64,000 bases of DNA from assembly GCA_027604005.1 (NCBI GenBank), contig JADGJT010000021.1:26568-90567 (forward strand). Reading direction: 5' to 3'. The position numbers were made by a program, and so were the translations under genes. The stretch comes from Dinochytrium kinnereticum. Lineage: Eukaryota; Chytridiomycota; Chytridiomycetes; Chytridiales; Chytridiaceae. Shown piece after piece: positions 623 through 43,400 of the stretch. Under the pieces are notes generated by a model. The model was not told where the DNA came from. It saw only the letters and a program-made list of their open reading frames with translations, and made no database searches. Each line of letters opens with the position of its first letter. The stretch's first letter is position 1.

Positions 623-1815
623 CTTTCAACCCCTCCTCACTCAGAACGGCGCCCGTTGGCCCCCTCACACGAACGCACAGCAGCACGCACACTCCCCGTC
701 TCCTCAGAGTCGTCTCACGGCAGGCCGATGCGGGCGTCGCCAGCGAGTCGCTCGCCTGTCTCGTTCGTTGGGTGCTGGCGGATGGGCGTTGAGGTGTGCA
801 GATTGTCAACGCTCTTTTGCCCAGTGGTGACAAGTTGAGTGAAATCGGCGGCAGATTCGCGAGATGCGCAAGAGCCACACGCCGCCACCATTTGGCAGCT
901 GGCAGCCAACAACACGATCCCTGGCGCATTTCCAGCATGGCGCTAGGCGTTCGATCGACAGAAGATGCGCGCGGAAATCCCCCGAGTCGGATGGGGCAGG
1001 GGGGGAGAATTCCACACCTTGCGATGCGTTCCGCCGCCCTTTTCCCCACTGGAAATCTGCAAACGCTATCTGCGTTTATATGTGCAAAGTAAGGATTGAC
1101 CGCTCTTCTTGGTGAGGAGAAGCATGGTTTATCTGAGATTGAGAGCGCGCCAAGCACTGGAACTCTGTTCAGCGCAAGCATTAATCGCAGACACGCGTGC
1201 CCACCCCCATCGACCACCAGGCATGCGGCATCTGCCTCAGACACCCGCGCAGTGAGATGCGCATTGAGACTCCTCCCTGTGCCGCGCACCTGCACCTCTT
1301 CCTGCAGCAAACGCGTGAGGTCGTCCTGCAGTGAACCAGCGCGCGTCGAGGGTGCAGTGTGCAGGTGTGAGGGCCAACTTCAAACAAGTCAAAATTTCAT
1401 TTCTTTGGTGACCAAACAACGGCAGACAGCACAGAGAAGCCGGTCGAGAGCCCTCCAACGACACGCACCGACCGACTATCGCCTTGCAAGCACACGGCCA
1501 CCGCATACCGGGAAGCATCGAAAACCACCTGCTGAACTGCCTGCGGTTGGCATACCTGGCGGGAGCATCAGCGGCTCATCCTGACTGTGTTTGGCGCTGG
1601 AAGCAAGGGATTCCCGTACAGCAAGGACAGGTCTCAGGAGGGCGGATCCCTTTGCAAAAAAAAGAAGCGCTTGACCTGACAGAAATCGTTTCGGACCATA
1701 TCCGCACCCGCCTCCCCCAAAGCATCACAGCCTGAACGAAACGCTGGATATAAAGAGCGCCCCGAAGCTTGCCAGGAGATCCTCCGGAGGCAGCACCCCT
1801 GACATATCCTTCAAC
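623..1815. other. Long divergent intergenic region
   Basis: About 1.2 kb separates the leftward gene starting at 622 from the rightward gene starting at 1816. Long open frames exist on both strands (for example 504-1310 minus), but they are rich in Arg/Cys/Ser/Pro and lack splice or start logic, so I treat them as non-coding. Two ACGCGT hexamers (1193-1198 and 1311-1316) are the only motif I can point to. Confidence 0.5.
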
Positions 1816-2396
1816 ATGATCTCCGTGCCAAAGTTCTCAACAGCAAGTCTTCCAGCATCCTCTGCCTCTCCATCCTTCATCCCTTCCCGGCTCTCCTCCC
1901 AGAGCCTTCCAACCATCAACCCCTCGTCGTCTTCCACATTCTTTAGCACCGCTACTTACAAGCCTGGAAGGTCATGGCAAGCGGCTGTTCAAGCTTACAT
2001 TGCATCCTGGAGGGGATATTGGTATGGATCTTCGGCGCAGTATAATGCTGCTGGGGGTTATCGGATGGTGATTGATGAGGATGATGAGATCTGGAGGAGG
2101 GACTTTCCATTGTTGTGGAGGCTGGACCCCTGCACCATGGCAAAGACCGTTATATTCATGACCATTGCTTTGTGAGTATCTTGTCCTTACCTCAGCTGGT
2201 TATTTGGCGTTGTCTAACTCGTATGTTATTCTTACTCATGTTTGATTCATTGTGGTTATCGCATATGTTATTATTTGAAGATGGATCATAGTTGTCATGT
2301 ATCAGGTTCGTGAATCTTAGAGGTTCATCACGTTTTGTATTCATCTAACCTTTCCTTTTTTTTCATTATCAGATATATGCTGCGTCAGCAGCGTAG
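1816..2396 (+). CDS. Small protein with C-terminal membrane helix, possibly mitochondrial
   Basis: Three exons: 1816..2171, 2281..2305 and 2373..2396, giving 134 residues. The first donor is GTGAGT, and the 25-nt middle exon and 24-nt last exon restore a single frame. The N-terminal ~50 residues are rich in Ser, Pro and Thr with sparse Lys/Arg and no acidic residues, like a mitochondrial presequence. A conserved-looking centre follows (SWQAAVQAYIASWRGYWYGS). The C-terminus is a hydrophobic segment (TVIFMTIALWIIVVMYQIY) that only becomes continuous after splicing, which supports the model. I do not recognise the family. It could be a small inner-membrane subunit, but that is inference from composition. 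Confidence 0.55.
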
Positions 2397-2947
2397 ACGC
2401 CTCATATCCAAAGTGCCGATGATGATACAATATCTGTTGGTGGGTGAAACGATAACATCACACCCAAATGCTCACGGTCGATGACGATATATGATCTTGT
2501 AAAGGGATGCTTTCACTTGGGGTATTAGCGGAGTGTGTTCTTGTATTATGTCATTTTATTTTTTTCTTTGTTATCCCTTTTCCTCCTCTCTTTCTCTTAA
2601 TTTTATAAGTGTCGATTTGGCCCAACCTTCTTTATTTTCTTTTCAATGTTGTTGGCATTGAAAATATTGCGATCATAGAAGTTAATAAATAACGATTTTC
2701 AATACTACTCTTTTTCGTCCCTCTCGTTCAAATTTCTAACAAAGAATTATTATCAATTGAATTCACCAAAGTGCACCTCATCGTTTCGTATCTCACCACT
2801 ACAGGCTCTCTTTATTGAAGTTTTTTCGATTATAAATAGTTCAACTGAAACATGATTATGTGTGTATATTGAAAAGAAAGACATTTAAAAAATGGTAAGG
2901 ACCCAGTGCTCACCACGCCTTAAGAAGCCGAAGGCGAGAATAAAATC
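2397..2947. other. AT-rich convergent 3' intergenic region
   Basis: This 550-base stretch lies between two convergent stop codons. It is AT-rich with T-runs and AATAAA-like words (near 2684) that could serve 3' end formation. I see no gene in it. Confidence 0.5.
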
Positions 2948-5427
2948 TCACAGCTTTGACCCTCCCGAGAACGACGTTGGCGACAAGTAAACCGCAATAT
3001 CAGCAAGCCGCTGAGGCTTCAAATCTGCCATGCCCACATCTACCTGTGGGAGTGATGGATCCCCTGCTTGAACAGAAACGATTGAAAGCTTTGTATCAGC
3101 AGCCCAAGGGTTTGTCAACTTTTGCACGTCAACCCGTGGCAACTTGAATGACGAAGTGGGGTGCACTCGAGTGGCCGTTGTGTGAGGTTTGTCAAAGCTG
3201 TTGAGGGGTTTAGAGGAAGAGCAGGAAGGGACGCCAAAGATGTCATCAAAAAAGATGACATTCACAGTGATATCATCCCTGAACTTTCGCGAATAAGGCG
3301 CCGGAATCCCCAACAACCTTCCAAGCCTCTCCTCATTTCTTCCACCAAGCGCATTCCGGATCAAACAGGTCGCCGCATTCTCGTCAGACTGCGACCACCG
3401 ATCTCCTGCGACAACACCACCCTCACCGTCTGCGCCATCCGTTCGTAAAACACCTCGAGAGAGCATGTGGCCAGCTACAATTTCAACAATCTCCTCGCTT
3501 TCTAGCTCGTCAAACAGACCGTCGGTGGCCAGGACGAGGAACCGGTCACGGGAGAGATCGATTTTGTACCGTGTTATTACGGGTTCTGCGGTGAGATAGG
3601 GCGGTGTCAGGTAGTATGGGAGGGGATCTGAGCGACCGGTTAGACCAGGGAGAAGTTGTCTTTGGAGGTTTGTGGGCCATTTGAAGATAGCGTCGCCTAG
3701 GAAAGATGAGAAAACAACTGATTAGAAAGGCCTTCTCCTCATCATCAATCCGCCAAAATATGCAGGACGGAAAGAAAAAAAAATGACGGGACTGGGTCCC
3801 GACTCACCAAAAGCCCGCGATGGCATAAGATATCCCAATAACCTTCCTCTGACGACAACCGTCTCATCCTCTCCAGGATGCTCACCAACAAGCCTGTTCC
3901 TCTCCTCCGGATTGCTCCCAGTCTGATCGACCGACAGCTCCACGGCCTCCATCATCCATGGGAACGGTGGTCGACTGGTCCCACTCCCAACTCCAGATGC
4001 CGTTTGAGGTGGCTGAGCCCGCCTCCGCAATGCCACTTTCCCAGCCAAAGATGCAGAAGGCGAAGCATGCGGAGAGGCCATCGCGCCTGCGCGACGTCTC
4101 GGTCCACGCACTCCTCCATGAGCATCCCGGTGTGAAGAAGGAGCTGGTGCCGTTCTCCCAAGAACGGCCCTCGAATCCCCTGTGCAAGCCACATATAAAT
4201 CTTGACCATCCAAAATTGCCACAAGAGCGCAAGATCCCGATAAAGCCGGTGACAGCATCCTCCTCGCCAAAGCTTCCCTCTGCCTCATCGACGCATTTGA
4301 CGACATCGCGTCCCACTCATTTTTGGTTTTGACCACCATTGGGGGTTTCCAGGGAACGGCTAGACCAGCGGCTGAAGTGTTATGCGGAAGCGCGGAGTAA
4401 ATTTCTCTAGGATCTTGAAGGACACCACCTGCGATTAGATCGTCGTCAAGTCGAGCAAAAGCGGAACGGATCGCACGTTCCATCATTTGGTTGCGCTCAG
4501 ATTCGGCGATAGAGGGGTCTCGGTCGGGGATGATTGAAATGGCATGGGCTATGTAGCTTGGAAGGAGGGCTGAAACCATGTGGGCGCATTCATGTCCGTT
4601 GTGGCCGTCGAAAACGCTGTGGAATGTAACCAATACGGTCAGAAAACAACGGTCATGCAATGTCGCTTCTACTCACCCAAACAGGAGACGGCCCTTTCCG
4701 AGAGAAATTTGGCACTGGGCATCTTCGCAAGGCTCATTACTAGGAACACATCCAACATCAAATCTAACCACCCCAGTACGTGATGAATTTGTCTCCACAT
4801 TCACCGTATCTCCCGCCTCATGCTCCTTCCCCACACCTTCCTCCGTGGTGTTTTCGATCCCATTTAAAACAGCTCCGCGATCAGGTTTAATGACAACAAC
4901 GCGTTCAAATGCCTTAAGCTTTGCATCTGCCTGCGATCGTTCTAACCCCATGCCTCCTACAGCTGGTTTGAGTCTAGAGTTTGGATGATGCTGCTGAGGA
5001 AGGTGTTGGTGATTTTGGTGCTGGTGATGATGGTGATGAGTGATTGAAGACGGTGAGGATGGTGGCTTTGTTCCTGGGATCGCTTGAATGATTCGGGTGG
5101 TTGGTTTGTGGGGCTGTGGGGTGACTTTCTGCATGTTTTTTTTCGATTGTTATTCAGTTCAGGTTGCCTTTGACAAAAAGAAAGGCAGGCCATAGCTCGC
5201 TGCCTCACCTGCGTTTGTTTAACGGAAGAAGCGATAGATCGTAACGACGAGTTCAATCCACCGTTCGGCTGGTGATCTCTCCCAACCCGTCGATGAATCA
5301 GCCTAACAAAACGAACACCTCCTGAATCTATTACTGCAGATCTCACTGCAAGGCGTGTCAACGACCTTTTGAGATTGGGAAAGAAGCCGGCGAAACCCCC
5401 AGTCGTGATGGGCCGCTCGAGGACCAT
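2948..5427 (-). CDS. Pyruvate dehydrogenase phosphatase-type PP2C
   Basis: Four exons: 5427..5209, 5128..4677, 4616..3808 and 3696..2948, giving 742 residues with all phases consistent. It is a metal-dependent Ser/Thr phosphatase of the PP2C family. Visible motifs in order are FGVFDGHNGHECA (metal-binding Asp), CALVAILDGQDLYVACTGDSRAVLG, LSVDQTGSNPEERNRL, SRAFGDAIFKWP, FLVLATDGLFDEL and RDDITVNVIFF. The SRAFGDAxFKWP and DQTGxNPxExxRL signatures are those of mitochondrial PDH phosphatase, which dephosphorylates E1-alpha and reactivates the complex. The first exon is Arg-rich with few acids (SLTRLAVRSA), fitting a mitochondrial presequence. A His/Gln-rich stretch (HHHHHQHQNHQH) and a variable insert near the middle are lineage-specific additions. 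At 742 residues it is longer than typical PDPs (about 530). The ATG at 5427 was chosen as the first ATG in the frame. Confidence 0.88.
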
Positions 5428-5738
5428 CCAGGGTGAAGGCAACAAGTAGCCGACCCTTCAAGCTTCTTTCGTATCGGCAGCCAGCAGCGGACGGCCGTCT
5501 TGGTCCCGGATACGGAGTGCGCGAGCGGAGGTGATGAAGAAGCCAAGTGTCTGTTCAACAAAAATTTGTGGATTTCGGAACTGGATGCCGTCGCTTTGAC
5601 GGGACGCGACGGAGACGCGCTCGCGCAGTGATGCGATGCGACGAGGAGAATTCACAAGAGGGACGAGTATATTGAGGGGTTAAACAGAGCGAAAAGCAAG
5701 TGACGCATGTGCCCTTCTGAGACTGTTCAGGAGGCAAT

Positions 5739-7072
5739 TCACTTATCGGCGCTCACATCTGGGTAAACGTCGAATCTTCTCTGCAACGTCACTGGAATAG
5801 AGCTTCGGGTCTCGTCAATTACGGCGGGGTCAACATCAGCGTAGACAATCTCTTCTCCGTGATCAGCCTTTGACAAGACCCTGCCCATGGGATCAACGAT
5901 TGAGGAATGGCCCCATGCAATGTAGCTGGCCGCGGTGTCGCGGGCTGGGGAACAGGCGGCAACGTAAAACTGGTTATCGTTGGCGCGGGCGCGTTGGAGG
6001 AGCTCCCACTGATTTTGGGTAGAGATATGTTAGATCGCCCATTCAGTGTGATCGACAAGCAAAAAACGTACATGCAAGGGTCCGGTAGTCATGTTGAAGG
6101 CGCCAGGGTAGATCATGGCAACGCAGCCCTTCCTCGCGGCAACCATAGCCATCTCGGGAAATCGAATGTCGTAGCAAATTCCAATGCCAATGGGGCCGTA
6201 GCTAGTCGGAATCATTGTGAGCGATGATCCAGGGCTCAAGACTTCTGACTCTTGAAACCTGATCTTGCCAGGGACGTCAATGTCAAAAAGGTGCACCTAA
6301 ACAAGGCGGTGCAAGTTAGTCAAATGCCACACCGAGCTTGAATTCACAGCAGGTTTCCAACAAACCTTACGATGAACCCCAATCCTCTTCCCCGCAGGGT
6401 CCCATATGGTGCAAGTGTTAAAGAATTTGGGGTTGGCGGGAGGTGCTGTCGCGTTGGCTTTCGTGGGTTCGCTTTCTGGGAAGGATCCGCCGATGAGGTA
6501 GACTCCAGCATCAGCCGCCATCTTTGAGAGCGCCTTAGAGGTGGGGCCTCCTTCCAGAGGTTCTGCGTACTCAGGAAAGTACGAGGTACCATACGGGCTG
6601 TTGAAGCATTCTAGGCGTTGCGGGGTTGGATAGTGTCAGTGAGAAAGAAGACAACTTATTGACGTTCTAGTGGTGATAGTATGCATGTCGCATGCATGGC
6701 AGATGCATCGCATAAAAGGACCAACACAACCGTTGATGCCGGGGATGCATGGGCAGGACAAAACGATAAAAGATGTTTTCCTCAAGTCTCTCAACTGATG
6801 CAGAAAACCTAGACCCAAATTTATCAAACCATCCATAAAGCCAACGATGGCATTGAGCCCATTCATGAGAATAAGAGACGATCGCAGCCGGACCGATGCA
6901 GACAATATCAAACAACTTCCTGCTCACCTGGAAGCACAACGACATTCGCCCCGCCGACCTTGGCGGCATGCAGCACCTTCTCCCTCGCCCTCTCCAGGTT
7001 CGCCTCCTTGCTGGCGGACACCATCAGCTGCACCAGTGCGAGCCTGAACTTCGTTGACGCTGCTTGGGCCAT
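5739..7072 (-). CDS. NIT2: Omega-amidase / Nit2-type nitrilase
   Basis: Four exons: 7072..6928, 6610..6366, 6296..6072 and 6008..5739, giving 294 residues, close to Nit2 orthologues (about 280). It belongs to the carbon-nitrogen hydrolase superfamily. The Glu-Lys-Cys triad is visible: Glu in [13 protein letters not shown] (formed across the first splice), Lys in GVHRKVHLFD and Cys in [12 protein letters not shown]. Family-typical blocks include [17 protein letters not shown] ([14 protein letters not shown]) and the C-terminal [14 protein letters not shown]. Omega-amidase hydrolyses alpha-ketoglutaramate and alpha-ketosuccinamate to 2-oxoacids plus ammonia. No in-frame ATG lies upstream of 7072; the Arg/Ser-rich sequence upstream might encode a targeting peptide only with a non-ATG start. 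The 467-bp gap to the divergent gene at 7539 is a likely shared promoter. Confidence 0.92.
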
Positions 7073-7538
7073 CTGGATGCACTTTGAACAGCCCCAAAGT
7101 CTGATATTTTTGTCGAGAAGTGACAACCCACAGGACCGACAGGACCTCGCGAGGACGGAGCGACGGGCGGACGCGTTATTGAGAAGTGTCAACAACCCCG
7201 ACGCGCATCTGTTCTCTAGACATGTTCTCCGAGGAAGTCTCAAGTCAGTTAAGCGACCTCAAACTCCGTGCTCAGAGAGAGCGCGATTTACGCTGAACAA
7301 TCAGAAGCCGCTGGTGCCATCCTCGAGGACTGGACTGCTGCTGAAATGCTGTGGATGCGTTCACAAGCTTCCAAACCATCCATTTGCGTTTTTATCTTTC
7401 AGTGATGGATGATTTGTACGGCCGCCTTGCAGATGTGATTGGATGTAGCAGCCTTTGTTGAAGCGATATTTCACTCTCAAACCACGTTCATCACAGCTCT
7501 CCATACGTGACGCCCTTCTGCGTTGCTTCTGAGCAGCA

Positions 7539-10123
7539 ATGCCACGGACAACATACCTGCGTATCCCCACCAGCGACCCGTCAGACAATGACGACGACTT
7601 TGATGGCATCGATTCCCCCCAAAATCAACTGACACTGTCCATCCTACCCTCACCAAAGCGCCATCACAATCTCGTGCCGCTCTCACCCGTTGCCGAAGAT
7701 GCTGGCTCGCCCATCGATAGAGGTCGATTGATACGTCTCGTCGGTCTGCCAGAAGCCCAGTCGTCTAGTGCAGGACAGCCAGGTCGTTCCCCGATCCCAA
7801 CGCCGAGTCGAAAGAAGGCTGACGGGGATGATCTGGAGAGCCCTCAACACACTGCTCCGTCAACCTCGTCTTCAAACGGATACACAGCTATCCCACTGAT
7901 CCCGACAGGGGATTCAAAGGAAAGGGGGGGATCTTCGCCACTCTCCCCGTTGGCTGTCACGACCATAGATGTAATGAACGGACCAAACCAGACGTTTTCC
8001 GGGTCTTATGATGAACAAGGAAGGCCCATTGTTGATGTGCTTGATTCTATGAACGAGGATCCTTTTACGTTGGAGACTTTTGAGACTATGATTAGGTTGC
8101 ATGCGAATCGGGGGAAGGATTTTGTCATTGCACGCGTCACGACTGTGGATCCGAATGACGAGACGAGGTTTTATTACTCTTACTATGCTGCACATCACAT
8201 CAATAAGGTCCTTTTTCGAACTCAACCAGAGGAAGGATTGCTTCATCGCATGAAGGCTAGGAATGTAGGTTTGCTTTCGCTACTTCCTTTCTTCTTCTTT
8301 CATAATAGCCAACTAACTACAGACATCTTCTTCTTCTTCGTCTTCTTCGCCTTCTTCTTCTTTTTTTTCTTTTTTTTTCTTCTTTTTTCTAAAAAAAGCC
8401 TCTTAATAACATGCTCATCATTGGCGATGTTCATTATTACGGTAAGTCCCATTAATGATCAACCAGAATATTAAGACTCTTTCGTCGGATAACAAAAAAT
8501 GCAGCTATTCGCGCGTTAGCCGTCAACCTCTCCCGAGCTTGCGGCAGCACAGCCACTCGCCGCAAGTCCACCGACTCCCTCAGCACCTTCCTATCAACCA
8601 TCTCCAACACCATAAAAACTGCTGGTGAAAACCTTCTCTCCGCTGCCCGCGCCGCCCCCTCCAAAACACAACACGAAGACGACGAAGAATGGTGTGAATC
8701 TCCAACGGCAACTTCTCCTCTGTTTGGGTACGCAGAGGAGTCTCGAAGGAGGGGCGTAACTTCTCCCACGGGATCATTTGACGATCGGATGGGATCAGCA
8801 GTTGCCGCGAGGTTTGCTAGGAAGATGAGGAGATTGATGAGGGTTGTCGGGCTTGCGCGTGAGGGGGAGACAGAGGTGAGTGGCAGGAAGGTTTTGCATC
8901 TTGTGATGCGCCCGGAAGCCTTGGTGGAGGATGGGACTTTTATTGTTAGGAGAGGTTCTGCGGACGATGCGTATTTCGACCGTCCAAATCCTGAGGCGAC
9001 GGTGAATGCTGCGAAGAAAGCCAGGGAGATCTTAACACCCCAAATAGCATCTGCTATATCGCAGCAGGCAGGAATGGTTGGCAGCAACGGAACCGCCTTA
9101 TCAGCCTACAGAAAGGTTCGATCCATCTCTTTTTTAAACGATGCAAGCCGAAAGGCATCCATGAGCCTTGAAGAATGGATGCGTGACCACTCCTTTGCAA
9201 CTTCCCCAACCTCTCCATTTCGAATCAACACTTTCCCTCAGCAAGACTCCCCCTCTCTGGCCTCCACTTCAAAAGCCATACAGAATCCTTTGCAGCAGCA
9301 AGGCGATCACCCTTTAGCAAACTTGGGGGACGTTGAAATCGCCGCAGTTGAGCAACGGGGAATAGCATCATCTGCAATCGTCGCCGCAAAAGCACACATA
9401 AAGCATTTGCAAATTCCCACCCTCAGCTCCGGCAAGCGCAAAGACAAGAGAGCCGCACAATCAAAGCTTACAGCAAACATTACAGCAAACAACCTCGCCA
9501 CGTCACCATCCCCAACAACCCGTCCAAAACTCTATTATACAGCAGAGTTCATTGGCACAGATGATGATTTCTTGATGAAGGCATCAACACGGGCGTTCTT
9601 TAAGGAGAGCGCCCTGGAGACCCAGGATGCGGTCTTGTTTACCATTCCCGGATCTAGCGGGGAAATGGTTGTTGATGGGGAGCAGCACCCTGCTTTGTTG
9701 AACTTTGTGTTTGCTGTAAGGGAAAGGGAAGGACAGGAAGGTGATGATATTTGGAGGAATGCTGGCAATCGAGCGATTCGGGTGCTGGTGCTGGCGTACA
9801 GTTTGTTGGGTTTCCTATTGGTGAAGTTTGTTGGTAAGCTGATCAATATCTCAGATATATCTCTGTTTTTTTTTCTTCTCGTTATTTAGAACAGTTTATT
9901 TCTTTATCACGTCCTTAGATTGCTATTTGTTTCTGGGCACGAGTTAACTTCTCGCTGGAATTTTGTGCTAACCAAATATCTTCTTATCCTTGCATTTTGT
10001 CGGAATACAGTACCTCCAGCCTACGCTTTTGTAAGTAAATCATTCTTTCACACTTTCGTTTTTCCCCACTTGGTGTTTCCCTTGCATCTTTTATTGCCGC
10101 CTCACAAAGGAAAAACATCCTAA
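7539..10123 (+). CDS. Ser-rich protein with C-terminal membrane segment, unknown function
   Basis: Four exons: 7539..8264, 8399..8441, 8505..9833 and 10011..10123, giving 736 residues. The first intron is pyrimidine-saturated (TTC runs, 8300-8390). The N-terminal 140 residues are Ser/Pro/Asp-rich and look disordered. A well-ordered block follows (NEDPFTLETFETMIRLHANRG, FVIARVTTVDPNDETRFYYS, HHINKVLFRTQPEEGLLHRM) and continues across the 43-nt exon as PLNNMLIIGDVHYY then AIRALAVNLSRACG. The second half contains ELYYTAEF-like (RPKLYYTAEFIGTDDDFL) and a strongly hydrophobic stretch near residues 685-705 (VLVLAYSLLGFLLVKFVVPP), suggesting a tail-region membrane anchor. The block looks like a conserved fungal domain, but I cannot name it. 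The last ~35 residues are uncertain: a further intron starting GTAAGT at 10031 is possible. Confidence 0.7.
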
Positions 10124-24249: not shown

Positions 24250-25599
24250 ATGGCCTCCGTGCTCATCGGGCTGACCGCCCTCGCCGTTTACCGTTACGTC
24301 AAGAACCGCCGAGGGATGAGAACGCCCGAGATGATGCTCATCAACAGATGCTTCCCCAATGAGCTCCAGCAGCAGATTTTGAACGATTTTGATGAGTGCA
24401 TCTCCACTTTCACCGCTTCTCGATACGATAAGCATCAGCGGGCCATCTTGTTGCTGAAGCAGCAGCAGATCTTGGCCGCTGAGGAGGCCGCCGCATCCAT
24501 CACTGGTTTGGATGGAGACGCTTTGACGGCTGGATCCGTGGAATCGATGGAATCGGACGGGGCAATAGCTTCGGTTGCTGATGCTGAACCGCCCAAGCCG
24601 TCCAGGTTTTCATTCTTATTCCGCAAAAAGCCTGGCACCGCCGCCACCGGCAGCAGCCCGCCCTCCAGAAGAGGATCATCAAGCTCGACGGGTTCAACCT
24701 CGACGGAAGCTACGGTGTTTGATCCAGCAGTGATTCGGATGGAGGCTTGCCAATCACTTCTTCTGCTTTGGGCTTTGGTTGACGCACTGAAGAAGGGGAT
24801 CAATCGTGAGGTTTTCCTGAAGCTCGAGGATGATTCATCGGAAAAGGGGACATCAAGGTCGTCCACACCTCCGTTGATGGATTCCGATGATGACCGAGGC
24901 GAGACAGCCAAATCTCACTCTGAAGGAACCGCAACCGATGACATCCCAGAAGGCACATTGATGGATTTAGACAAGGTCAAGCAAGAAGCTGATGCCACCA
25001 GCGACAATGCCCCGCCACCCATGTCTCTGGCGGATCGAGAGCTGGAACTTCTCACTCCACTGGACACCGTCACTCTCCTCTCACTCCTCCAGATCCTCCA
25101 ATCCGTTGAATCCGTTCTTCTGGATCGTTTCATGTTCCTCCGCAACTACGGCGTCACAGCCATCCCTGTCTCCATTGGTGAACGTAGGCGCTCCTCTGCG
25201 TCCTCTTCAGAGCACCTCAACGCAGCGGCCGCCGCCGCCGCAGCAGCAGCAGCCCCCAGTAGCGTCACCCTGGATGACCTGGAATGCGACGGCTACATTC
25301 TTCACAAGATCTCGTTGGGGTGGGGATTCGTGCTCATGCTGCTTGAGGCGCGGAACACTGCTGAACTCAAAGAGCTGGTGATGGAGCATGATGCCATCAT
25401 GGATGGAAGGATGGATGGGTTCTTGGTCAACTCAATCCTGAAGGTGCTGGCCACCCGTGGGGTTGCGTTGCCGAGTGCAGTTTCGTCGATGTCGTCCTCA
25501 GAGTCCCTTGCGCCAACCGTCGTGCAGCCACCCCCTCCTCCCCTCGAGGCGACGCCTCCATCGCCCCGGCCCTCTGCACCGCAAGTCGCCGCGGCATGA
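24250..25599 (+). CDS. Unknown Ala/Ser-rich protein with N-terminal membrane segment
   Basis: A single exon of 449 residues. The start (MASVLIGLTALAVYRYVKNRRG) looks like an N-terminal signal anchor with positive residues on the C-terminal side. Two structured blocks are separated by low-complexity Ser/Thr/Asp/Glu linkers. One is near residues 25-65 (INRCFPNELQQQILNDFDEC). The other is in the second half (LTPLDTVTLLSLLQILQSVESVLLDRFMFLRNYG and DGYILHKISLGWGFVLMLLEARN). A run of 14 alanines interrupts the latter, and the C-terminus is Pro/Ala-rich. I do not recognise the family. An organelle outer-membrane or ER-anchored protein with a cytosolic helical domain is one reading. Confidence 0.7.
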   Translation: MASVLIGLTALAVYRYVKNRRGMRTPEMMLINRCFPNELQQQILNDFDECISTFTASRYDKHQRAILLLKQQQILAAEEAAASITGLDGDALTAGSVESMESDGAIASVADAEPPKPSRFSFLFRKKPGTAATGSSPPSRRGSSSSTGSTSTEATVFDPAVIRMEACQSLLLLWALVDALKKGINREVFLKLEDDSSEKGTSRSSTPPLMDSDDDRGETAKSHSEGTATDDIPEGTLMDLDKVKQEADATSDNAPPPMSLADRELELLTPLDTVTLLSLLQILQSVESVLLDRFMFLRNYGVTAIPVSIGERRRSSASSSEHLNAAAAAAAAAAAPSSVTLDDLECDGYILHKISLGWGFVLMLLEARNTAELKELVMEHDAIMDGRMDGFLVNSILKVLATRGVALPSAVSSMSSSESLAPTVVQPPPPPLEATPPSPRPSAPQVAAA

Positions 25600-25962: not shown

Positions 25963-28900
25963 ATGGTGACTGGAAGAAGGTGTGTTGTGCTTCTCGCCGT
26001 CACGGCTCTGGCATGTGCTTCCTTGGCCTCGGTGCACGCAGAACAGAAGCATTCTGGATACGAATTAGGTACGCTTTTACGCATGAATGTGTCGATAACG
26101 GTGGTGAACCCGTTCTCTTGCGTTGAGGCAAGGACATTAACACTTCTACTTCATATCGAAATTGCAGCATCTCATCATCGCCCAGGGCTCGATCGTCGCG
26201 CAGTATCTCCTGACTCTTCCACGAATTTCTCGACACCAGCGCTCTCGTCAAATGGGGGATGGGGTATTGAGATTTGGTCCTCCGCGGCTGCTGGCATCCG
26301 GAAGATGTTTCAGGGAAGCTTTGGATCAAAGGACTCATCGGTGACAGCGCAGCGGATTTTGATGGGATACATTGTAAGGAGATTCCTGTTATTTGTTGTT
26401 GCTGTTTTTTCTAAGCTATTGGTCCTATTTTTTTGTGTGTGTTTCCATTTACATGGTAGTATTATTGTTGCATAAACTAATTAATTACGATGAAAAAAAA
26501 ACATAAAACAACAACAGAGGTCACTGGTCTTGATGGGCTTCTTGATTCTATCGGCGTTTGCAAGCATCGCTGTTGCCATTATTGTGTCATGCTTTTGTCT
26601 CGGAAAGCCCAGAAAGTCCATGTCCCTTGGAGACCAGGACAGAACCTATGTCTCGATTGGTGCTGTAGTTGTCTCAACTTTTGCGATCTTGTAAGTTCTC
26701 ATAGCTTTTACTTTAGAGCTCGAGCTGCGCTAAACCCTTGATTTTCACCATTATTCAGCGTTTGTATCATTACCGGCATTCGCGGTTCCGCATACCTCAC
26801 CACCTCAATAAACACGTTCAGCGATACTCTTACCGTTGTTCCGCTTCATGTCCGTTCCTCCCTCGACAAAGTCCCTCGAATCATTAACGACACAGTTGAT
26901 GTTCTTTCATCAAACTTGAATAATACCATTGATGCAGGAGTATTTATGGCTGTTGATGTTCAGAGGATGGCTCGGGCTTTAGGAAGCTATGATTCTATCA
27001 ATGGCCCAGGAACGAATTTACTGGACAGCTTGAGGATTTTGACTTGGTTAGTCGGAAACTTTACGGCGAATACGACGGAGATGAATAGTCTTGCTGTTAA
27101 CATCAGCGTGGATTCCAATACCTTCTATAGAGGTGATGATTTTGTTATTAAGTTGTGAGGTTCTTACCTGCTATTCATTTTTATTGCGCCAAAACAGATC
27201 TAGCCTACCTCCAAAGAAATATAACCCAGATCAATCTTTCCTGGGCATCTATTGCTAACCCGACGCTCCGTTTCGAGCTTCTAGAAAAACTTCCTACAGT
27301 GAATTCGACGCCAGAAGTCTCAACCCTCAGCAATAGCGTGACAGCATCCTCATCAAACGCCATCACCCCTGCTTCTCAAACCCTTAGTTCTCTCCCAGAC
27401 TTCCCGGGAATATACGCTACGATCGACCCGTTGTTCCAAAATGTATCCGATACGATCAATAATCTGGCTCGTAATTATACCGATGGACCAAAGATTGAAA
27501 TCGGTGAAAAGATTTTGGAGGCAGGAAGAAAGGCTAGAGTCGAGTCTGTGAATGTTACGGTGGACATTCAGGAGGATGTGGATGGGTGGAAGAATGATAT
27601 TATGAGGTATTTGGACGATGGGAAGGGTGGAGGGATTTTATACTATAATGGTATAAGGGCTGTCGTTACGGCTCTATTGTTTGCCTCGGCTGGACTTATG
27701 ATCACTTTGATTGTTGTCAGCATTTTTGTGAAAAAGCCTATAATTGTGTCGATGTAGGTCCCTTTCAACTTGGAAGCTCTTAAATTGCCATATCTTTTTG
27801 TAGTAATGATAATAACCTACCTATATAGAGCTCTCCCAAACATGGCCATTCTGACCTTCCTCTTCCTTGTGATCGGAGCAGTCTTCTTTATGCTGGCAGT
27901 TATCCTAAGCGACGGTATTCGAGTTTCCCAGTTAAACTCAATACTAAATCTCTCTCATTAGGCTGTTTCCTAGTCGTTACAGAAAAAGGCGCTGTGATAA
28001 CAAGCCTGTCAAAGAACAACATGGTAGAGAATTTCTTTGTAGGAAGGGATCAGTGCATCGAAAACCCGACGAAGAGTTTAGTGTCTTTTGCGAGGCAGGT
28101 TGGAGTAAATACCGATGCTCTGAATTTGACCATGGCGGCCGCACCCTCGATTGAAGCGTTGAACCTTTCAGCGATTGCTAATTTGAATTTTTCGTGCGTA
28201 CATTTATTACCTGTCTGCGGTATTTCTAGAACCTACTCTGTGTTTGCCGGATCCTTTCCACACCAGTAGCCTCTAACTTTTCTACTCACATATTTATAGG
28301 ACTATACTACCCCCCGCTCTCTCGATCTTCCGCAACCAAAGCATACCTGCTCTCTTTTCAAGCCTCAACTCTACCCTCCGTTTAGACCTCTTCGCCCCTC
28401 TTCGATCATCCAACTTATCTATTCTCCTTCAGTCCATTGAAAACATTAAAATCACCACCAACTCTTTCCGCGGCGGTCCATCTAATTACACCAATCGAAT
28501 GGTATCGATCCCAGCTGGAGCAGCAGTTACCGCAGCGGATTTGCAAGGCTTTGATAGAGCGTTAAGTAATGTTGTCCTGATGACTGAAAGTGTTGAGAGG
28601 AGCGTCAGGGGAGTTGAGGATGGGGTTAGGAGGATTGTGAGGATGGTAGATTATATGGCGGAGGGGGTTAGGATTGGACAGGTTTGTTTTTTTCGTCTAT
28701 ATCTGTTTTGTCGGGCTTTGATCTATGTCTTCCTCGTCTTAGTCATTTAAGCTATTTTGTTTCTCTTTATTCAATAACCATTTCCTCTCGTATCATATAT
28801 TCAAACTCTAGAACGTCGGCGAAAGCGTCCCAGTTTACTTAAATGCAACCCTTAACCTCCTAAATCAATTCTCCCAAGAGATAAATCAGAACGTAGGTCC

Positions 28901-29785
28901 AATCATCGTCATCTCAACCTGGTTTAACACTACGCATGATCGTCACCAGGTCAATAGATACGCACCGATCGCCAAAAGAATGCTTTACGATTCAATCAAC
29001 TCTGATTATGAGAAGGCTATTTCCGAGTTACCGTGCAATGTACTTGCAGCCGATACAGTCGTACTTCAAGATAGCGTCTGTGTTGGGGTTAAGTGAGTTG
29101 AGCATTGTCTGCTGCCGCCCTTGGTCATTTTGCTTATAACTTCATGTTTCCTGGTCTTCTAGCGAATCATTCGATATAATGTGGTTTGCCTTTGCTACAT
29201 GTGGCATGAGCCTTTTCATGTGCTTGTCCTGCCTCGGATGTATATCCAACCGTTTGGTCTCAGGCCCTCCACAGTGGGATAAGACTGTGAAACGGGATGT
29301 ATCCATGTCAACCATTTCAACGGCTTCTGGGACTTTATTTAGTGAGAATGGGAAGAGGAGAAAGTTTGGAAAGGTAAAGAGAAATTCGACATAAACCCCT
29401 GCTCTTCAACATTCTTTATATATGCATTCATTAATAATTGGAATTCATTTAGGCCGAATACACAATCAAAGAGACCCGTCACGCCGACGATCTCCTTCCA
29501 TCTGACGACATCTACACACCGGAATGGAACACCGGAAACCACCCCCTCGGATCCAACGATACCTTTGAGGAGCCAACATCTCGGTCCGCAAATTACGCTG
29601 AATCTTACGACCATCAGCCTCCATCCCCTGTTCTGTCGTCCATGTCTGCGGTTCGTGGTCGACCTGGCCCTGTGACGTTGGTGACATCGAATGGGGATGA
29701 GATTAGGGTCATGCCATCCAGAAGAGCTTCGGATGTGCCCAGGAAGGCTAGGAGTCCCTCTGTGGCCAATTACTTTAAAGAGTAG
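25963..29785 (+). CDS. Prominin-like pentaspan membrane protein, copy 1
   Basis: Eleven exons: 25963..26068, 26168..26373, 26518..26690, 26759..27132, 27198..27753, 27829..27914, 27962..28193, 28300..28681, 28812..29092, 29163..29373 and 29453..29785, giving 979 residues with every phase consistent. The topology matches prominin (CD133): signal peptide (1-26), short ectodomain, TM1 near 106-133 ending in a Cys-containing juxtamembrane (VSCFCLGKPRK), TM2 near 146-168 (ending ITGIRG), a large N-glycosylation-rich loop, TM3 near 442-467, TM4 near 477-500, a second large loop with the family-like cysteines (RDQCIENP, SELPCNVLAADTVVLQDSVC), TM5 near 804-826, then a cytosolic tail of ~150 Ser/Pro-rich residues. 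Prominins bind cholesterol and shape membrane protrusions. A paralogue follows directly downstream. Confidence 0.8.
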
Positions 29786-30446
29786 AGAAATTAATCGCGG
29801 TTTTTTCACTGCTCTTTGAAGTCTTGATATTGGCGGGTTTGGTTCCATTGCTATTTGTTTTTTGTATGTCAAAGTCTTGAGCTTGTTTAATCCTCTTTCA
29901 TTAAGTTATTCTGGCCGTGTGTTCTTTTTATACAATTAATATGTGATTTTATTATTTTTTTTTGAGCTTAATGATGATTCTCGTGCTGAAATACATATGT
30001 CCTAGGTCATTTTAAGTGAAATCACATTCTGCCCTTTTCACAGTTAGCTTCTCTCACCGTTCTAGCTGCCTATATACACAAATCTCAGTATCGCCAATCC
30101 TTTTTTCATGAGTCATGTCGAGAAGAGACGACGAGATCTTAATGAAATATCCCCAACCGCCGCTCTTGTAATAAATCACTGTCGGTGTATAAGTACATAA
30201 TCCGCCGTGAAAATCTCAAGATCTACGGCGGGGTTCAGCAGGAGAGGTGTCCTCAGAACGGCGATCCTCCAAAAGGGCTCGACGAAAGCGACTGATAGCG
30301 GTGCAAATCTCCCTCGCCAAGTCCCTTGCGCGTCCTTCGACCCTTTTTGCCAGTTATTGTAATTGACATTTGCCTTGTCAACGTGTCCTGGACTGAACTG
30401 TTCCAACCATCACCTCCTGATATCGATATCAGCAGGATCCGCGGAG
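29786..30446. other. Intergenic spacer between the tandem prominin genes
   Basis: About 660 bases, AT-rich at the left (probable 3' UTR and terminator of copy 1) and nearer average composition at the right (probable promoter of copy 2). I see no gene and no remnant of a third copy. Confidence 0.5.
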
Positions 30447-33400
30447 ATGCTATCGCCACTCCTTCATTCCTCCCACAAAGGAAGGCTTCTCGTGTTTTTC
30501 GCTGGCTGCGGTTTCTTTGCACATGGTCTAGCTGATTCGTCAGGTATGCATGGAATGGACGGATACGAATCTTAACATTGATACAGCTGCGAAGGATCTG
30601 GAGGCCAGACAGCTTGCAATCGGTAGGATTATATTGATTGATCGGGTGTTTCCTCTAGCCGAAAGCTCGCTAACGATTCTTTCTTCTCTTATTCGATCTT
30701 CTGCAACAATAGGATCCGCGGAACCCAGTATGCCATCATTTTTTTCATCCCAGTTATCCTCATGCAACATGTGGTCATCGATGAAGGCTTACGTTCTTCG
30801 TGTCTTTCTTTTGATTTACAGTTGCCATCGCCGTACCCAACCCTGGCAGTCTTCCCGTAGCCGTTCCAGGCTTTAATCCTTCAGCTCCGGTGGGATCCAC
30901 TGTAGGGTCTCTTCCGTCATTGGGCGGGATTGCTTTACCAGGTTAATTATACCCCTGAGTCTTCCTCTCTTGGTCAAGTAATTATAACACCTTATCATCT
31001 TCACGGAAAGCAGGAACTGGTGATCCAAACACCATCTTGGCAAACACTGGTACTGGAGTTAGCATTCCTGGTTCATTGCCCGGAAGTCTCGGAACTGGTG
31101 TTATTGGAGGAGCAACTAGCGGTGGCATCGCAGGCAGTATTGGTAGTATTGGAACAGATATCCTCGGCGGGAATTCTGGCAGCAATCTCGCAAGCAGCAC
31201 TGGAGTCCTTGGGTCAATCGGATCTGGCATTCTTGGGTCAATTGGAAACACTGGTATCGCAGGTGGTCTTAACCTTGGAAATGCAGTTCCGATAATGGCG
31301 CCTGTAGATGGGACTACCGTTCTATCATCTGCTCAAGGAGTGGCCAATGGTATTGCTGGATCTGGAGCTGCAAATGCTATTACCTCCAATCCTCAGGTCC
31401 AAAATGCTATCAATTCAATCACGCCCCTCCAGGCTATCACTACTGGAGGTGGTGGTATTGAGATTTGGGGGAGCATTGCCAAGAGCTTTAGAAAAATCCT
31501 GCGGGGAGGGAAGTTTGGGATTCCGGAAGGTTTCATTAAAAGTGGAGGCGGTTTTGATATCGCCGTCGTCCAAAAGGCTTATCTGGTACTCCTTAGCCCC
31601 CTCCCACTCTTATCTTACCTGAAGTGCAAGACAACTGGAACTTATAGATTTCTTTTACTTTACATTTTTCGTTTTAGTTTACGGCGATAGTTATTGGTCT
31701 TTTCTTCATCTTGGCCGTGTTTAGCTGGCCCATATTTCTCTTTGCTTGCTGCTGTTGCTTATCAAGAAAAAAGAGAAATGCGATCAAGAAAAGCTTCTGC
31801 AGATGGCTATGTGCTTTTCTTCTTTTAATCATTGTTTCTTTAGCGGCTGGGTAAGTAGCAGTTTTGTTCTCAATTTTCACCCCGACATTCAATCATATTG
31901 AAAACATTTCCATAGAATTGGGTTTATCACTGGTATCCGAGGAAACACTCTTCTTGACAAGGGTCTGAACGACTTCAAGCACGCAGTTGATATCACTATC
32001 AATGACACCCTCGAAATCGTCGTGGTATTCCCCCAAGTCGTTAACACTTCCCTTCTATCCGTCACAAACGGTGTCGTCGGAGTACTCGACCTTAGCGCTG
32101 CTGCAGTTAAACCATCCGAGCTCGCCAAGACAGTAGGCAGTGTCTCTGAAAGCTCTGGGCTCGTCAACGATTTCTCTGTTGCCCTTAAAATCGTCACACC
32201 CGTGCTGAAAGACCTTAACACATTCGCTTCAAATGCGGACGGGGCTGTTGGCGATCTTGAGAATCGTGCTCAGACTATTGAGGCGAGTCTATCATCTTTG
32301 AAGACCACCATCGACACTTTGAACGGTGTTTACACTTTTCAGGGTGTCACCTTTAAACGATCGACGCCTTTCCCGTTGGATGCCGCTCTTGTATCAAAGT
32401 TCTCGACCATTTTAACACAATTGAGTAGAGCTAAGCAGTTGGATTTTAGAGTCTCGGATGCGTTTGCAACGTCTGGGTTCTCTGATTTGGGTGATTATGT
32501 TGCTGATGCTGAAGCGATGATCGCATTGCTTCAAGATCTTTCTGGTGCCGTAACTAAGGCAATGTTGAAAAAAGCTGAGTTGGCATCTGGTCCGATCAGG
32601 ACGCAGATGAAAAAGTTCTCGAACGAGATTAACTATGAAGCTGGAGATGCTTCAAGCAAGCTTAGAACAACTTTGCTAGATGCTGATAAGAACATTGACA
32701 ACATGTTTGCGTCAGGCTCTATAGGTGGCGTTGTTCAGAACAACCTCCAAAAGTTCTTCTTCTTCTTATTTGTGGCCGGTATCGCTATTGCTGGAGGGGT
32801 TATGCTGATTATTATGTTCCGGGCCCCAAGGGTCCTTAAAGGGTATAGTGTCCTGCGACTCTGATAAACTCTAATCATGGCAATACAGATTCTTAATAGC
32901 TGTCGTCATTGGAGCCTTCCTGTTTTTGGCATTCGCTGGTGTCTTCCTCCTACTCACCGTTGTTTTCAGTGACTGTAAGTGACTCTCTTCCGTCAAAATA
33001 ACCCTCTAATCTCATATTCAGTCTGCGGTGAAATCGATGATGTCGTGACCTCAAAACCAGAGAAATCAACATTGTGGGGAACGCCATTTGAGTACCTCCC
33101 CAAGCTTTTCTACTACCGCGAAAACAGTTGCATCAAGCAGGACCTTGGCCTGGTCCGATTCGGCTACCAGATGGGTGCCTTCCCCGAAAACATTGCGAAC
33201 CTCACTAGAGCCGTCACCCCTACTGTTAACGGATTTGACCTATCGCTCTTTGCATTCCTCACTACTCCGTAAGAAACCTTTGCGTTCTCTACAGTCGGAG
33301 CCAAAAATATGTTTTCCGCTTATCTTGTACTTTACAACACAGAGAATACTGGCTTCCAAGCAGCCGAACTGCAGTTGACTCAGTCTCGAGCGCGCTTAGC

Positions 33401-34371
33401 TCTTTCCTTCGCGCAAGGGCTTTCGAACCCTGGAAGACTATGGGCGACAACGATGTGTCTGCATCGACAGCCGACATCACAACTCTTAGCAACACTGTGA
33501 ACTCCGATATCGCTGACATAAACACCAACACAGCTTCAACATCCACTCCACCACAATTCACTGTCACTACTGGAACCCTGACATACGAGGCTGTGGCTGC
33601 GTCGCCGTACTTTTTGACTTTGCAAGGACTTCCCATCATTTTAACATCTCTTCTTGGGAATCTGAACGATTTCTTGGTTCAGTACCAGCCGCTCATCACG
33701 GCGGCCAAGAACATTAACACTAACGGGCAGAGTGCTGTGGTTAGTGCCTCTTTTTTAAATACCAATCAATCTGACTTATCAATTGTTTTTTTAAAACCTT
33801 CCCACACATCATGATAGAACCAATACCCCACCATTCCCAACTTGTTCAGCCAGGTCGCTTCTGGGCTGGACGATTACAGCGGATATGAGACCAACACAAA
33901 TCTTCGACCCTTCGAAGAGACCATGAAGTTCAACATGCTTGTAGCAGTTGAGGCGGCTCGTAATCAATTTGAGAGTGCTCTTCCGTGTAAAGTGCTTGCA
34001 AAAGACACGAATGTTATTCAGGATAGCATCTGTCTTGCAACTCTGTAAGAACTTTGTTTTTGTTTTTGGTTCCTGGCCAATGTAACATAACGACTAAACG
34101 GCATGTGCTTTAGGACTGGCGTTGACTCTCTGTGGTTGTCATTTGCGGCTATCGGTCTTGGACTGTTTATTTACATTCCTTGTTATGGCTGCCTCGTCAA
34201 CCGTCTTGCCTCCGGAAAGAGGAAGGGGAAGGGAAAGGTTGACCCTGAAGACGTTAAGGTAAGTTAAAAAACTTTGCACATAATATGTTGGTTTCTACGT
34301 CCTAACATAACATCATCGTTATCTTTTCTTTATATTCTTCAACTCAACAGGGCGGCGTTGACTCTTACTAG
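30447..34371 (+). CDS. Prominin-like pentaspan membrane protein, copy 2
   Basis: Thirteen exons: 30447..30543, 30587..30622, 30713..30727, 30822..30941, 31014..31585, 31678..31850, 31916..32842, 32889..32974, 33022..33268, 33343..33739, 33818..34044, 34114..34258 and 34351..34371, giving 1020 residues. After a signal peptide (LLVFFAGCGFFAHGLA) comes a Gly/Ile/Ser-rich ectodomain of about 200 residues. TM1 (281-307) runs into a prominin-type cysteine cluster (FACCCCLSRKKR). TM2 ends in GFITGIRGN, the first loop (344-615) is helical, TM3 and TM4 follow, then VVFSDFCGEIDD, a second loop with SALPCKVLAKDTNVIQDSIC, and TM5 near 972-994 with a 26-residue tail. The 15-nt third exon and 21-nt last exon are the weakest parts. 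Eight intron positions and phases match copy 1. Confidence 0.8.
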
Positions 34372-40493: not shown

Positions 40494-43400
40494 ATGCTCC
40501 TGACCGACGAGAACGGGTTCATCACCCACATGTCCATATTAGTCATGGGATGCGCATTCACGGGCAAGTCTGAGCTCATCTCCTCATTCGTGTCGGGTCG
40601 TTCCCAGACCCTCTCCGCGACATCTCCGGCACCTCCAGGGATGACCCCAACCACCCCAACGCCGTCTCCGCGAAACGGCGGTAGTACCCCATTCTCAGCG
40701 AAAGCCTCGAATCCACTTTCACCAGGGCCATCCCCCACGACGGGATCCGCGAGACTTGGCAACAGTGAGTCAGTCTTCTTGGGAGAGTATGAGCCAACCA
40801 TTGAGGATGCCGTCACCATTCAGTACGTTCTTCCTCACAATCCTTCCTATGAGGCTCCCTACGTTGAGCCGCCACCACCGCCTCCAAGTTTAGCCACCCA
40901 AGGTTTGGTTCAACAGCAACAAGGATCGCAGGGACCCGCGTCGACCATGTCCACATCCACATCCCCCGAACACTCCAGACGGCCCTCCAACACCTCAATC
41001 CTCTCATTCTTCTCCTCAAACAGCACCCCAACACCCACTTCCTCTTCAGACGGGCACCACCCTCCGACGCCCATGTACAGACGCAACTCCTCCCCAACTC
41101 CGGACGTGGATGACATGGAGGTCATCCCCGAAAAGAAAAGGCAGGACCGTCAGAGAATTGTGGTGACGATTATGGAGGTTGGAGGCCATCGCTGCTATTC
41201 CAGAGTTTGGGGGTCCTCGGCGGTCGTGGCGGATGCTGTGATGCTCGTTTATGACGTTGGGGAGAGAAGATCTTTTGACGCGCTCTGGGGGTTTGTGAAG
41301 TGTGTTGCGGAGGCAAAGAGGGTTGTGCCCAAGGATATTCCCTTTTTGCTTGTTGGGACGATGGTTGATACGGTTGGACGGTTAGTTCTTGACATCGTTT
41401 TATTTTATTTACAAGAAAGGCTTCCCCCTTTACTTTTTTTTCCTTCTTCTTCCCCACCAACTCCGTGTTCACAACATACCTAACCTTTCTTGTGATCTGC
41501 TTCGTCACTTTGTTCTCCCTCACCAACTCCGTATTCACAACATACCTAACCTTTCTTGTATTCTGCTTCGTCACTTCACGCGTCGTTAAAAAACCAAATA
41601 ACACACACTCGCCACCACTGTGTAAAAACCAGGGGCCGTACCCGCCAAGTGGCACTTGAGACCGCGGCCTCTTTCTCAAAAGTCCTCAACATCCCCTTTC
41701 TAGAAACAACCGCGCTGGCCACCAAATCCGTCGCGCACTGCTTCCGCACCCTCATCGAACAAACTCAGGTCAAGGTTCACGCCATTCTCGATAAAACCAT
41801 TCTCAGCATCAATTCGAATCCATCACTTGCGGCTGTGGTGTCAAACGCGCATCAGGGTGGGGAAAAGACCCGAGATGAGGTTGAGGTGACGGAGAGAGTC
41901 ACGATTATGAATGGGGTTGTGGAGTTGGGGAGGTCGGAGGCTTTGGAGGCTTTGATGGGCTCTGAGAGGGCCAGGAAAGTGCTTATGACCAGTGGGGAAG
42001 TGAGGTAAGAGACGTCCAAAACGCGTTTTTTTTTTTTTTGATCTAAAGGTGTGCTAACCCAAGCCTTTAACAACGACGCTTTCATGTCCAGACACGCTGC
42101 AGACTTTACCCACATAAACCGACGTCCCAGCAACTCCTTTTCAATTGCGTCGTCCTCGGGCTTCACCGCCACATCTTCCAATGTTACAGGCTCTCATCTC
42201 TCCCCGTTTATAGGGCCACGAAAGGGAAGCATGGGCGCCACAACAACCCTCCTTCAACGATCCATGTCATCTCGACTCCGTGACGACTCACCACGACCCA
42301 TGGACTCCTCACCAGCAGATGGCCCCCAAAACATCCACCGCTTCTCCTTTGAATCCCGTCGCCCCTCTGACGCCTCAATAATCTCACAAAACTCCTCCTC
42401 CTCCTCCTCACCTACAACCTCCTCCGCTTCCTCCCTCTGCTCAACAATCCTGTCCTCCTCATCTACGATCCATCAACAACCCCTTGACCGGGACCCACGT
42501 CGTGAAACTCAACCAGGACCACCCAAGCTCGGATCGTTGAGGTATAAACGGGATGTGGCTTACGCGGCGTGGATGGCTTTGAAGACTAGGGGACTTCAGA
42601 GGCCGTTTCCGAGGGGAACGGATGGGATGGTCAACCTTGGGGGCGGGGGAGAGAGTCTGGGAGTTGGGAAAGGGCATTTGCATATTGAGATTCCGCCCCG
42701 GAAAGGGTCGGTGCCTGGACCGAGGAATGGGGGGGGTGGACCGCCGGTTCCAAAGAAGGATTTAGGCGATAGGGAGATGGCTGGAGATGAGATCGGAAAG
42801 ATTGGTGAAGATGATGGTGTGAAGCTAGGGGAAGCAGGCCGCGGTGATGCGGTAGAAGATCAAGACAAGGCGTCGTTCCCATCTGCACATGCATCCCTTA
42901 TTTCTCCTCTCACCACCCCGACAGTCGAAAACTGTGAAGCAGACAAACCAAGGACGACCGACCTCACTGACCCGTCGAAGCCACCCGCCGTTCCATTAAA
43001 ATCAACGGCTGAATCAGGGAGCGCCGGAGTACGGTCACCTATCTTCGAGTCGATCGCGTTGCAGGGGCTGCTAGGGCTTGGTCGTTCGCCGGTTGATGAT
43101 GATGTGCACGAACTGAAGGGTTTGGAGGCGGTGACTTTCTCTGGTATTCAAAGTGGGGCGCCAGGTAGAGACGTCGTTGGGGAGAGTCCGGAGGGTGACG
43201 AAGTTGGTAGAGGGGATATTGTGGTGACGACTGACGATGTCTCAACGCGAATTGAGTTAGAGGTCTCGGCCGCGACGGAGGATGCAAGGATTAGGGCTGA
43301 GGCAAAGCGTTTTAAATCTCCTTCCACCACATCACCTCCAATCCTTACACAACCCGCAACTACAAACCCACCCATTACCTCCCCCACAGCTGACCCAACT

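Follow-up and report, generated by a model that had tools for sequence, protein, structure and literature searches.

A tandem pair of prominin-like pentaspan genes in the chytrid fungus Dinochytrium kinnereticum

Does a flagellated fungus possess its own counterparts of the animal prominins? This question is raised by a stretch of 64,000 nucleotides (nt) from Dinochytrium kinnereticum (Chytridiales), referred to here as the window, the coordinates of which are used throughout. Two intron-rich genes lie head to tail on its forward strand: gene 1 at 25963-29785 (GenBank HDU67_003553) and gene 2 at 30447-34371 (HDU67_003554), separated by 661 base pairs. We propose that they encode anciently duplicated, prominin-like pentaspan proteins of the prominin/Tweety superfamily, which in this chytrid has at least three members and probably takes part in sterol-linked membrane bending. 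We put the probability of this reading at roughly 0.6.

By their sequences, the two genes are ancient paralogues. An alignment of the predicted proteins extends across 792 columns with 21.6% identity (expectation value, E, 8e-36), and six introns occupy identical columns and phases in both genes, so that the likeness is beyond chance. A third paralogue, recovered by an exon-by-exon search of the genome, is located away from the tandem pair on another contig of the same assembly (C30, L024; about 867-6865 of that contig). Its model is partial and lacks the exon for the third transmembrane span (TM3), which falls in a stretch rich in poly-T and poly-G. The E values of this partial protein are 5e-49 against gene 2 and 1e-29 against gene 1. 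The gene has six intron positions in common with gene 1, five of which are also found in gene 2. At its C-terminus the third protein has a long tail with many RQDS-type repeats.

The pair is also present in a second genus of the same family. In Phlyctochytrium planicorne, HDU97_000851 is the ortholog of gene 1 (48.7% identity) and HDU97_000852 that of gene 2 (49.7% identity), and the two bear consecutive locus tags and are recorded on contigs of equal length. Because P. planicorne has orthologs of both genes, the duplication is older than the divergence of Dinochytrium and Phlyctochytrium.

Both proteins of the pair contain five spans in a 2+2+1 order, as judged from Kyte-Doolittle hydropathy with a cut-off of 1.6 and with approximate segment ends. 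The spans lie at residues 108-126, 151-169, 446-464, 479-497 and 789-807 in gene 1, and at 284-302, 324-342, 619-637, 649-667 and 976-994 in gene 2. An N-terminal hydrophobic core is strong in gene 1; in gene 2 it stays below 1.6 and the signal peptide is recognised by eye only. The short loops measure 24 amino acids (aa; 4 basic, 2 acidic) and 14 aa (2 basic, 0 acidic) in gene 1, and 21 aa (7 basic) and 11 aa (3 basic), with no acidic residue, in gene 2, a charge make-up that fits the inner membrane face. The outer loops comprise 276 and 291 aa in gene 1, 276 and 308 aa in gene 2, where the first figure spans a marginal extra hydrophobic segment (384-402; 1.66), and 281 and 298 aa in HDU97_000852.

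Several motifs accompany this layout. Cysteines follow TM1 (C129/C131 in gene 1, C304-C307 in gene 2), and TM2 is followed by TGIRG in the pair and both P. planicorne orthologs and by TGLRS in the third paralogue. The first outer loop is free of cysteine in all five genes. The second contains exactly four, at 502, 532, 761 and 776 in gene 1 and at 677, 712, 947 and 962 in gene 2, and four are likewise present in each of the four distinct genes that contain TM5 (gene 1, gene 2, HDU97_000852 and the third paralogue); the public model of HDU97_000851 ends before TM5 and is left out of these counts. In the four genes the first two cysteines are 30 (gene 1) or 35 residues apart and the last two always 15, with the last one forming the C of a C-x7-D-x2-W motif at TM5. 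Its tryptophan is W787 in gene 1, W973 in gene 2, W974 in HDU97_000852 and W726 in the third paralogue, and NRL follows TM5. An earlier note on this DNA had described a tandem pair in a fungus, 660 base pairs apart, with a pentaspan layout, cysteines after TM1, the TGIRG motif and paired cysteines in the second loop. All of this holds in our models, including the starts and ends of the genes and, to within one base pair, the gap.

Are these proteins prominins? Bell et al. (2024, PMC11405016) define the family by homology to metazoan prominins together with five spans in 2+2+1 order, outer loops of more than 300 aa (in their methods) and inner loops of less than 25 aa. They further report that Trp-795 is almost perfectly conserved in prominins. 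The chytrid proteins resemble the prominins (PF05478; human PROM1/CD133 and PROM2, and the fungal and other members of Bell et al.) in the order of their spans, as far as hydropathy can tell, in two loops of about 300 aa, in inner loops below 25 aa (24/14 and 21/11), in cysteines in the second loop and in a Trp at the start of TM5, which is equivalent to Trp-795 as judged by position only. They differ in the Gly/Ser/Ala-rich N-terminal stretch of gene 2, about 205 aa in length, and in their tandem arrangement, the two members of which contrast in sequon number and tail.

Profile matches stay below the curated gathering scores of 34.3 bits for PF05478 (Prominin) and 31.8 bits for PF04906 (Tweety). 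The PF05478 match of gene 2 has E 8.7e-5 and 21.3 bits (22.0 for the core alone), that of HDU97_000852 23.8 bits (24.9 for the core alone) and that of the third paralogue 19.4 bits; the consensus of these three reaches 29.7 bits. Prominin is the top Pfam match of each of the three, out of five distinct genes with TM1/TM2, and HDU97_000852 has a precomputed PF05478.17 label. Two reversed-sequence controls gave no Prominin match, while one of them matched Tweety at E 0.23. Four observations weigh against our proposal. None of the scanned sequences, gene 2 included, reaches the PF05478 gathering score in the copy of Pfam used; gene 1, its public version HDU67_003553 and HDU97_000851 have no PF05478 match; most outer loops are just under 300 aa; and the Tweety score of gene 2 nearly equals its Prominin score. 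Scans of the D. kinnereticum genome with PF05478 and PF04906 returned no matches, which can occur when a weak signal is split across exons.

The earlier note had assigned both genes to the Prominin family and named a PF05478 search as the check. The search backs this only halfway: a genuine, though weak, profile relation to PF05478 is seen for gene 2, HDU97_000852 and the third paralogue, and gene 1 and HDU97_000851 remain matchless. Judged by sequence, the proteins are prominin-like members of the prominin/Tweety superfamily and not certified members of PF05478. We use the label "prominin-like" because spans, inner loops and Trp fit, but the loops are mostly shorter than 300 aa and the homology is below threshold.

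The similarity to Tweety homologs (PF04906; TTYH1-3), which also have five spans, raises the possibility that the chytrid proteins fall within the Tweety side of the superfamily, with a TTYH-type role as lipid-binding membrane proteins in place of a prominin role. PF04906 scores 20.4 bits for gene 2 (E 2.4e-4), 20.6 bits for HDU97_000852 and 23.2 bits for a five-sequence consensus, all under the gathering score, and for this consensus it is ahead of PF05478 (E 3.4e-5 versus 5.8e-5). A search of the PDB by sequence with gene 2 gave a single irrelevant match; by profile, human TTYH1 came third (E 0.012), behind two unrelated helical proteins, and its second aligned stretch shows SDFC after TM4, as does gene 2. 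TTYH chains also top the list of folds similar to a low-confidence structure model of HDU97_000852, the full-length GenBank ortholog of gene 2. No prominin chain is among the 50 rows of this list, which says nothing about prominin. However, the consensus of gene 2, HDU97_000852 and the third paralogue prefers Prominin over Tweety by 12 bits. The chytrid loops, of 276-308 aa, are larger than those of TTYH, whose extracellular domain Bell et al. (2024, PMC11405016) call "more minimal", and the TM5 Trp is present, for which the same authors report no equivalent in TTYH. We consider a place among the Tweety proteins unlikely, if worth keeping in mind.

A further alternative is a separate fungal pentaspan family that resembles prominins in layout only, through convergent topology, and may be related to a protein such as Prm1. 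Fungal Prm1 is a multispan surface protein with large ectodomains and four spans that acts in mating fusion. On this general description the chytrid proteins are likewise multispan fungal proteins with large ectodomains, but have five spans instead of four. A family of its own would agree with the absence of any score above a Pfam gathering threshold and with the lack of a convincing match for gene 1 and HDU97_000851. It would also agree with the narrow spread of the relatives: three protein-database searches, in each of which about 8000 candidates were scored and relatives may be missed, returned sequences from the two species only, and the one among them that used a profile listed HDU67_003554 and HDU97_000852 alone. 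Against it stand the top rank of Prominin for three of the genes, the reversed controls without a Prominin match and the TTYH chains at the head of the fold list. We judge convergence to be rather improbable.

The public gene models deserve attention, as they obscure the layout described above. HDU67_003553 is 97% identical to our gene 1 over 96% of the searched part, and HDU67_003554 is 94% identical to gene 2 over the searched part. In our models, exon joins were picked by hand with the paralogue partly in view, and all introns are GT..AG. Gene 1 (+) has 12 exons and 960 aa (25963-26068, 26168-26373, 26518-26690, 26759-27132, 27198-27753, 27829-27914, 27962-28193, 28300-28681, 28812-28892, 28950-29092, 29163-29373 and 29453-29785). 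Gene 2 (+) has 13 exons and 1020 aa (30447-30543, 30587-30622, 30713-30727, 30822-30941, 31014-31585, 31678-31850, 31916-32842, 32889-32974, 33022-33268, 33343-33739, 33818-34044, 34114-34258 and 34351-34371). The size of gene 2 is as first predicted; the 979 aa initially given for gene 1 result if a possible in-frame GT-AG intron of 57 nt (28893-28949) is kept, as in GenBank, and 960 aa if it is spliced out. Alignment to gene 2 mildly favours its removal.

An exon of 173 nt encodes TM1, the short cysteine-bearing loop and most of TM2 in gene 1 (26518-26690), directly followed by the exon with TGIRG (26759-27132), and TM1-CCCC-TM2 in gene 2 (31678-31850). In the public model of gene 2, all but the two ends of this exon is missing, and with it most of TM1/TM2. 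TM4 is encoded by an 86-nt exon (27829-27914 in gene 1, 32889-32974 in gene 2), after which the public gene 1 model skips the residues GCFL; it also skips most of the exon for TM5 and the Trp of C-x7-D-x2-W (29163-29373). The corresponding exon of gene 2 (34114-34258) carries TM5, W973 and the basic cytoplasmic end. We favour the hand joins because the omitted parts align to the respective other paralogue, all three paralogues share the lengths of 173 and 86 nt, and the intron columns and phases coincide. In addition, TM1/TM2 of gene 2 aligns closely to the P. planicorne ortholog, and GCFL of gene 1 to GCYL of HDU97_000851. With some membrane spans missing from both GenBank models, surveys of predicted proteomes would overlook the five-span layout. 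The missing spans could also be taken to mean that one gene is mis-modelled or a decaying copy, leaving a single working gene, but this is hardly credible given that both are open over 12-13 exons with matching intron phases and that a second genus possesses an ortholog of each, at 49-50% identity.

How do the two prominin-like proteins differ? We counted N-glycosylation sequons from TGIRG to TM5 and compared each count with 2000 shuffles. Gene 1 has 20 sequons versus a shuffle mean of 8.5, a count reached in none of the 2000, and HDU97_000851 has 17 versus 9.7 (19/2000) in a public model that stops before TM5. Gene 2 has only 3 versus 6.3 and HDU97_000852 a single one versus 6.4, with 1934 and 1999 of the shuffles, respectively, equalling or exceeding these counts. 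The third paralogue has 5 versus 2.4 (155/2000). The cytoplasmic tail of gene 1 (exon 29453-29785) retains the motifs A[ED]YTIK.., PPSPVLSSM.A.RGRP and NYF in both genera, while the tails of gene 2 (26 aa) and HDU97_000852 (22 aa) are short. The latter two proteins have a Gly/Ser/Ala-rich stretch after the N-terminus (203 and 209 aa), much of which is encoded in gene 2 by exon 31014-31585, together with a GGGGIEIW motif. The contrast in sequons and tails exists in both genera and suggests a division of labour, perhaps between two subunits of one complex.

What might such proteins do? Human Prom1 and Ttyh1 are reported to induce extracellular vesicles (Bell et al. 2024, PMC11405016), and by analogy with them we infer sterol binding, membrane bending and a cellular location for the chytrid proteins. 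The five-helix membrane domain would work with sterol, while the two long helical outer lobes would crowd the outer surface. Clusters of the proteins may then bend the membrane outward, so that protrusions or vesicles are shaped or shed. The proteins might reside in protrusions, in rhizoids or in the flagellum, for whose membrane in zoospores the earlier note had suggested a role. Cholesterol is reported as the major sterol in four of five Chytridiales species, with 24-methyl cholesterol in the fifth (Weete et al. 2010, PMC2878339), and chytrid zoospores are described as having a high sterol content, notably cholesterol (a 2016 paper, PMC5062065). Because Chytridiales are reported to contain mainly cholesterol, the ligand of animal prominins would be available.

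A more far-reaching and doubtful model is that the pair forms complementary subunits of one cholesterol-dependent, hetero-oligomeric membrane-shaping complex, encoded side by side since before the genera split. One subunit would carry many sequons on an ectodomain that is probably heavily N-glycosylated, and would have a long, conserved tail on the cytoplasmic side. In the other, an ectodomain almost without sequons would go with an extended Gly/Ser-rich N-terminus and a tail that is short and basic. The family would then have dwindled in fungi as ergosterol replaced cholesterol and flagella were lost.

Five of ten neighbouring frames scanned have Pfam matches, all of them ordinary: mitochondrial carrier, PP2C, PEBP, Ras and, below the cut-off, F-box-like. 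The Ras-family frame (40494-41480, +; PF00071, E 8e-9) contains long low-complexity stretches. Just upstream of gene 1, a large open frame (24253-25596, +) with an N-terminal hydrophobic segment has no Pfam match at E 0.01. Elsewhere in the assembly, a match on contig C135 (E 0.097) was not used, and one on contig C9 (E 0.10) was rejected as a further copy: when compared again, it yielded mostly alignments that are short or of low complexity, and the best (E 2e-5) joined the Gly/Ser-rich N-terminus to the other strand. Contig C9 (L025) holds, at about 3400-8400, adjoining frames with repeated TVFVPTNAAF / FVPIDSAF motifs, which by eye we take to be fasciclin-type secreted proteins without relation to the gene pair.

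According to Bell et al. (2024, PMC11405016), prominins occur in fungi and also in excavates, SAR and green plants. Their presence in fungi is not new, which lowers the surprise, and the earlier note overstated the case in calling them unusual there. Our literature searches found no chytrid prominin, although the fungal set of Bell et al. may include chytrids, and nothing that links Prm1 and prominin in fungi; what they found on D. kinnereticum concerns CDKL kinases. Within the reach of these searches, three things seem to be new: the conserved pair, the opposite glycosylation patterns of its members and the third copy.

Taken together, automatic gene models can lose spans of such proteins, and proteome surveys may therefore undercount them. 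The locus provides a flagellated-fungus setting in which to ask about the roles of prominin and Tweety proteins outside animals, in an order that is reported to use mainly cholesterol.

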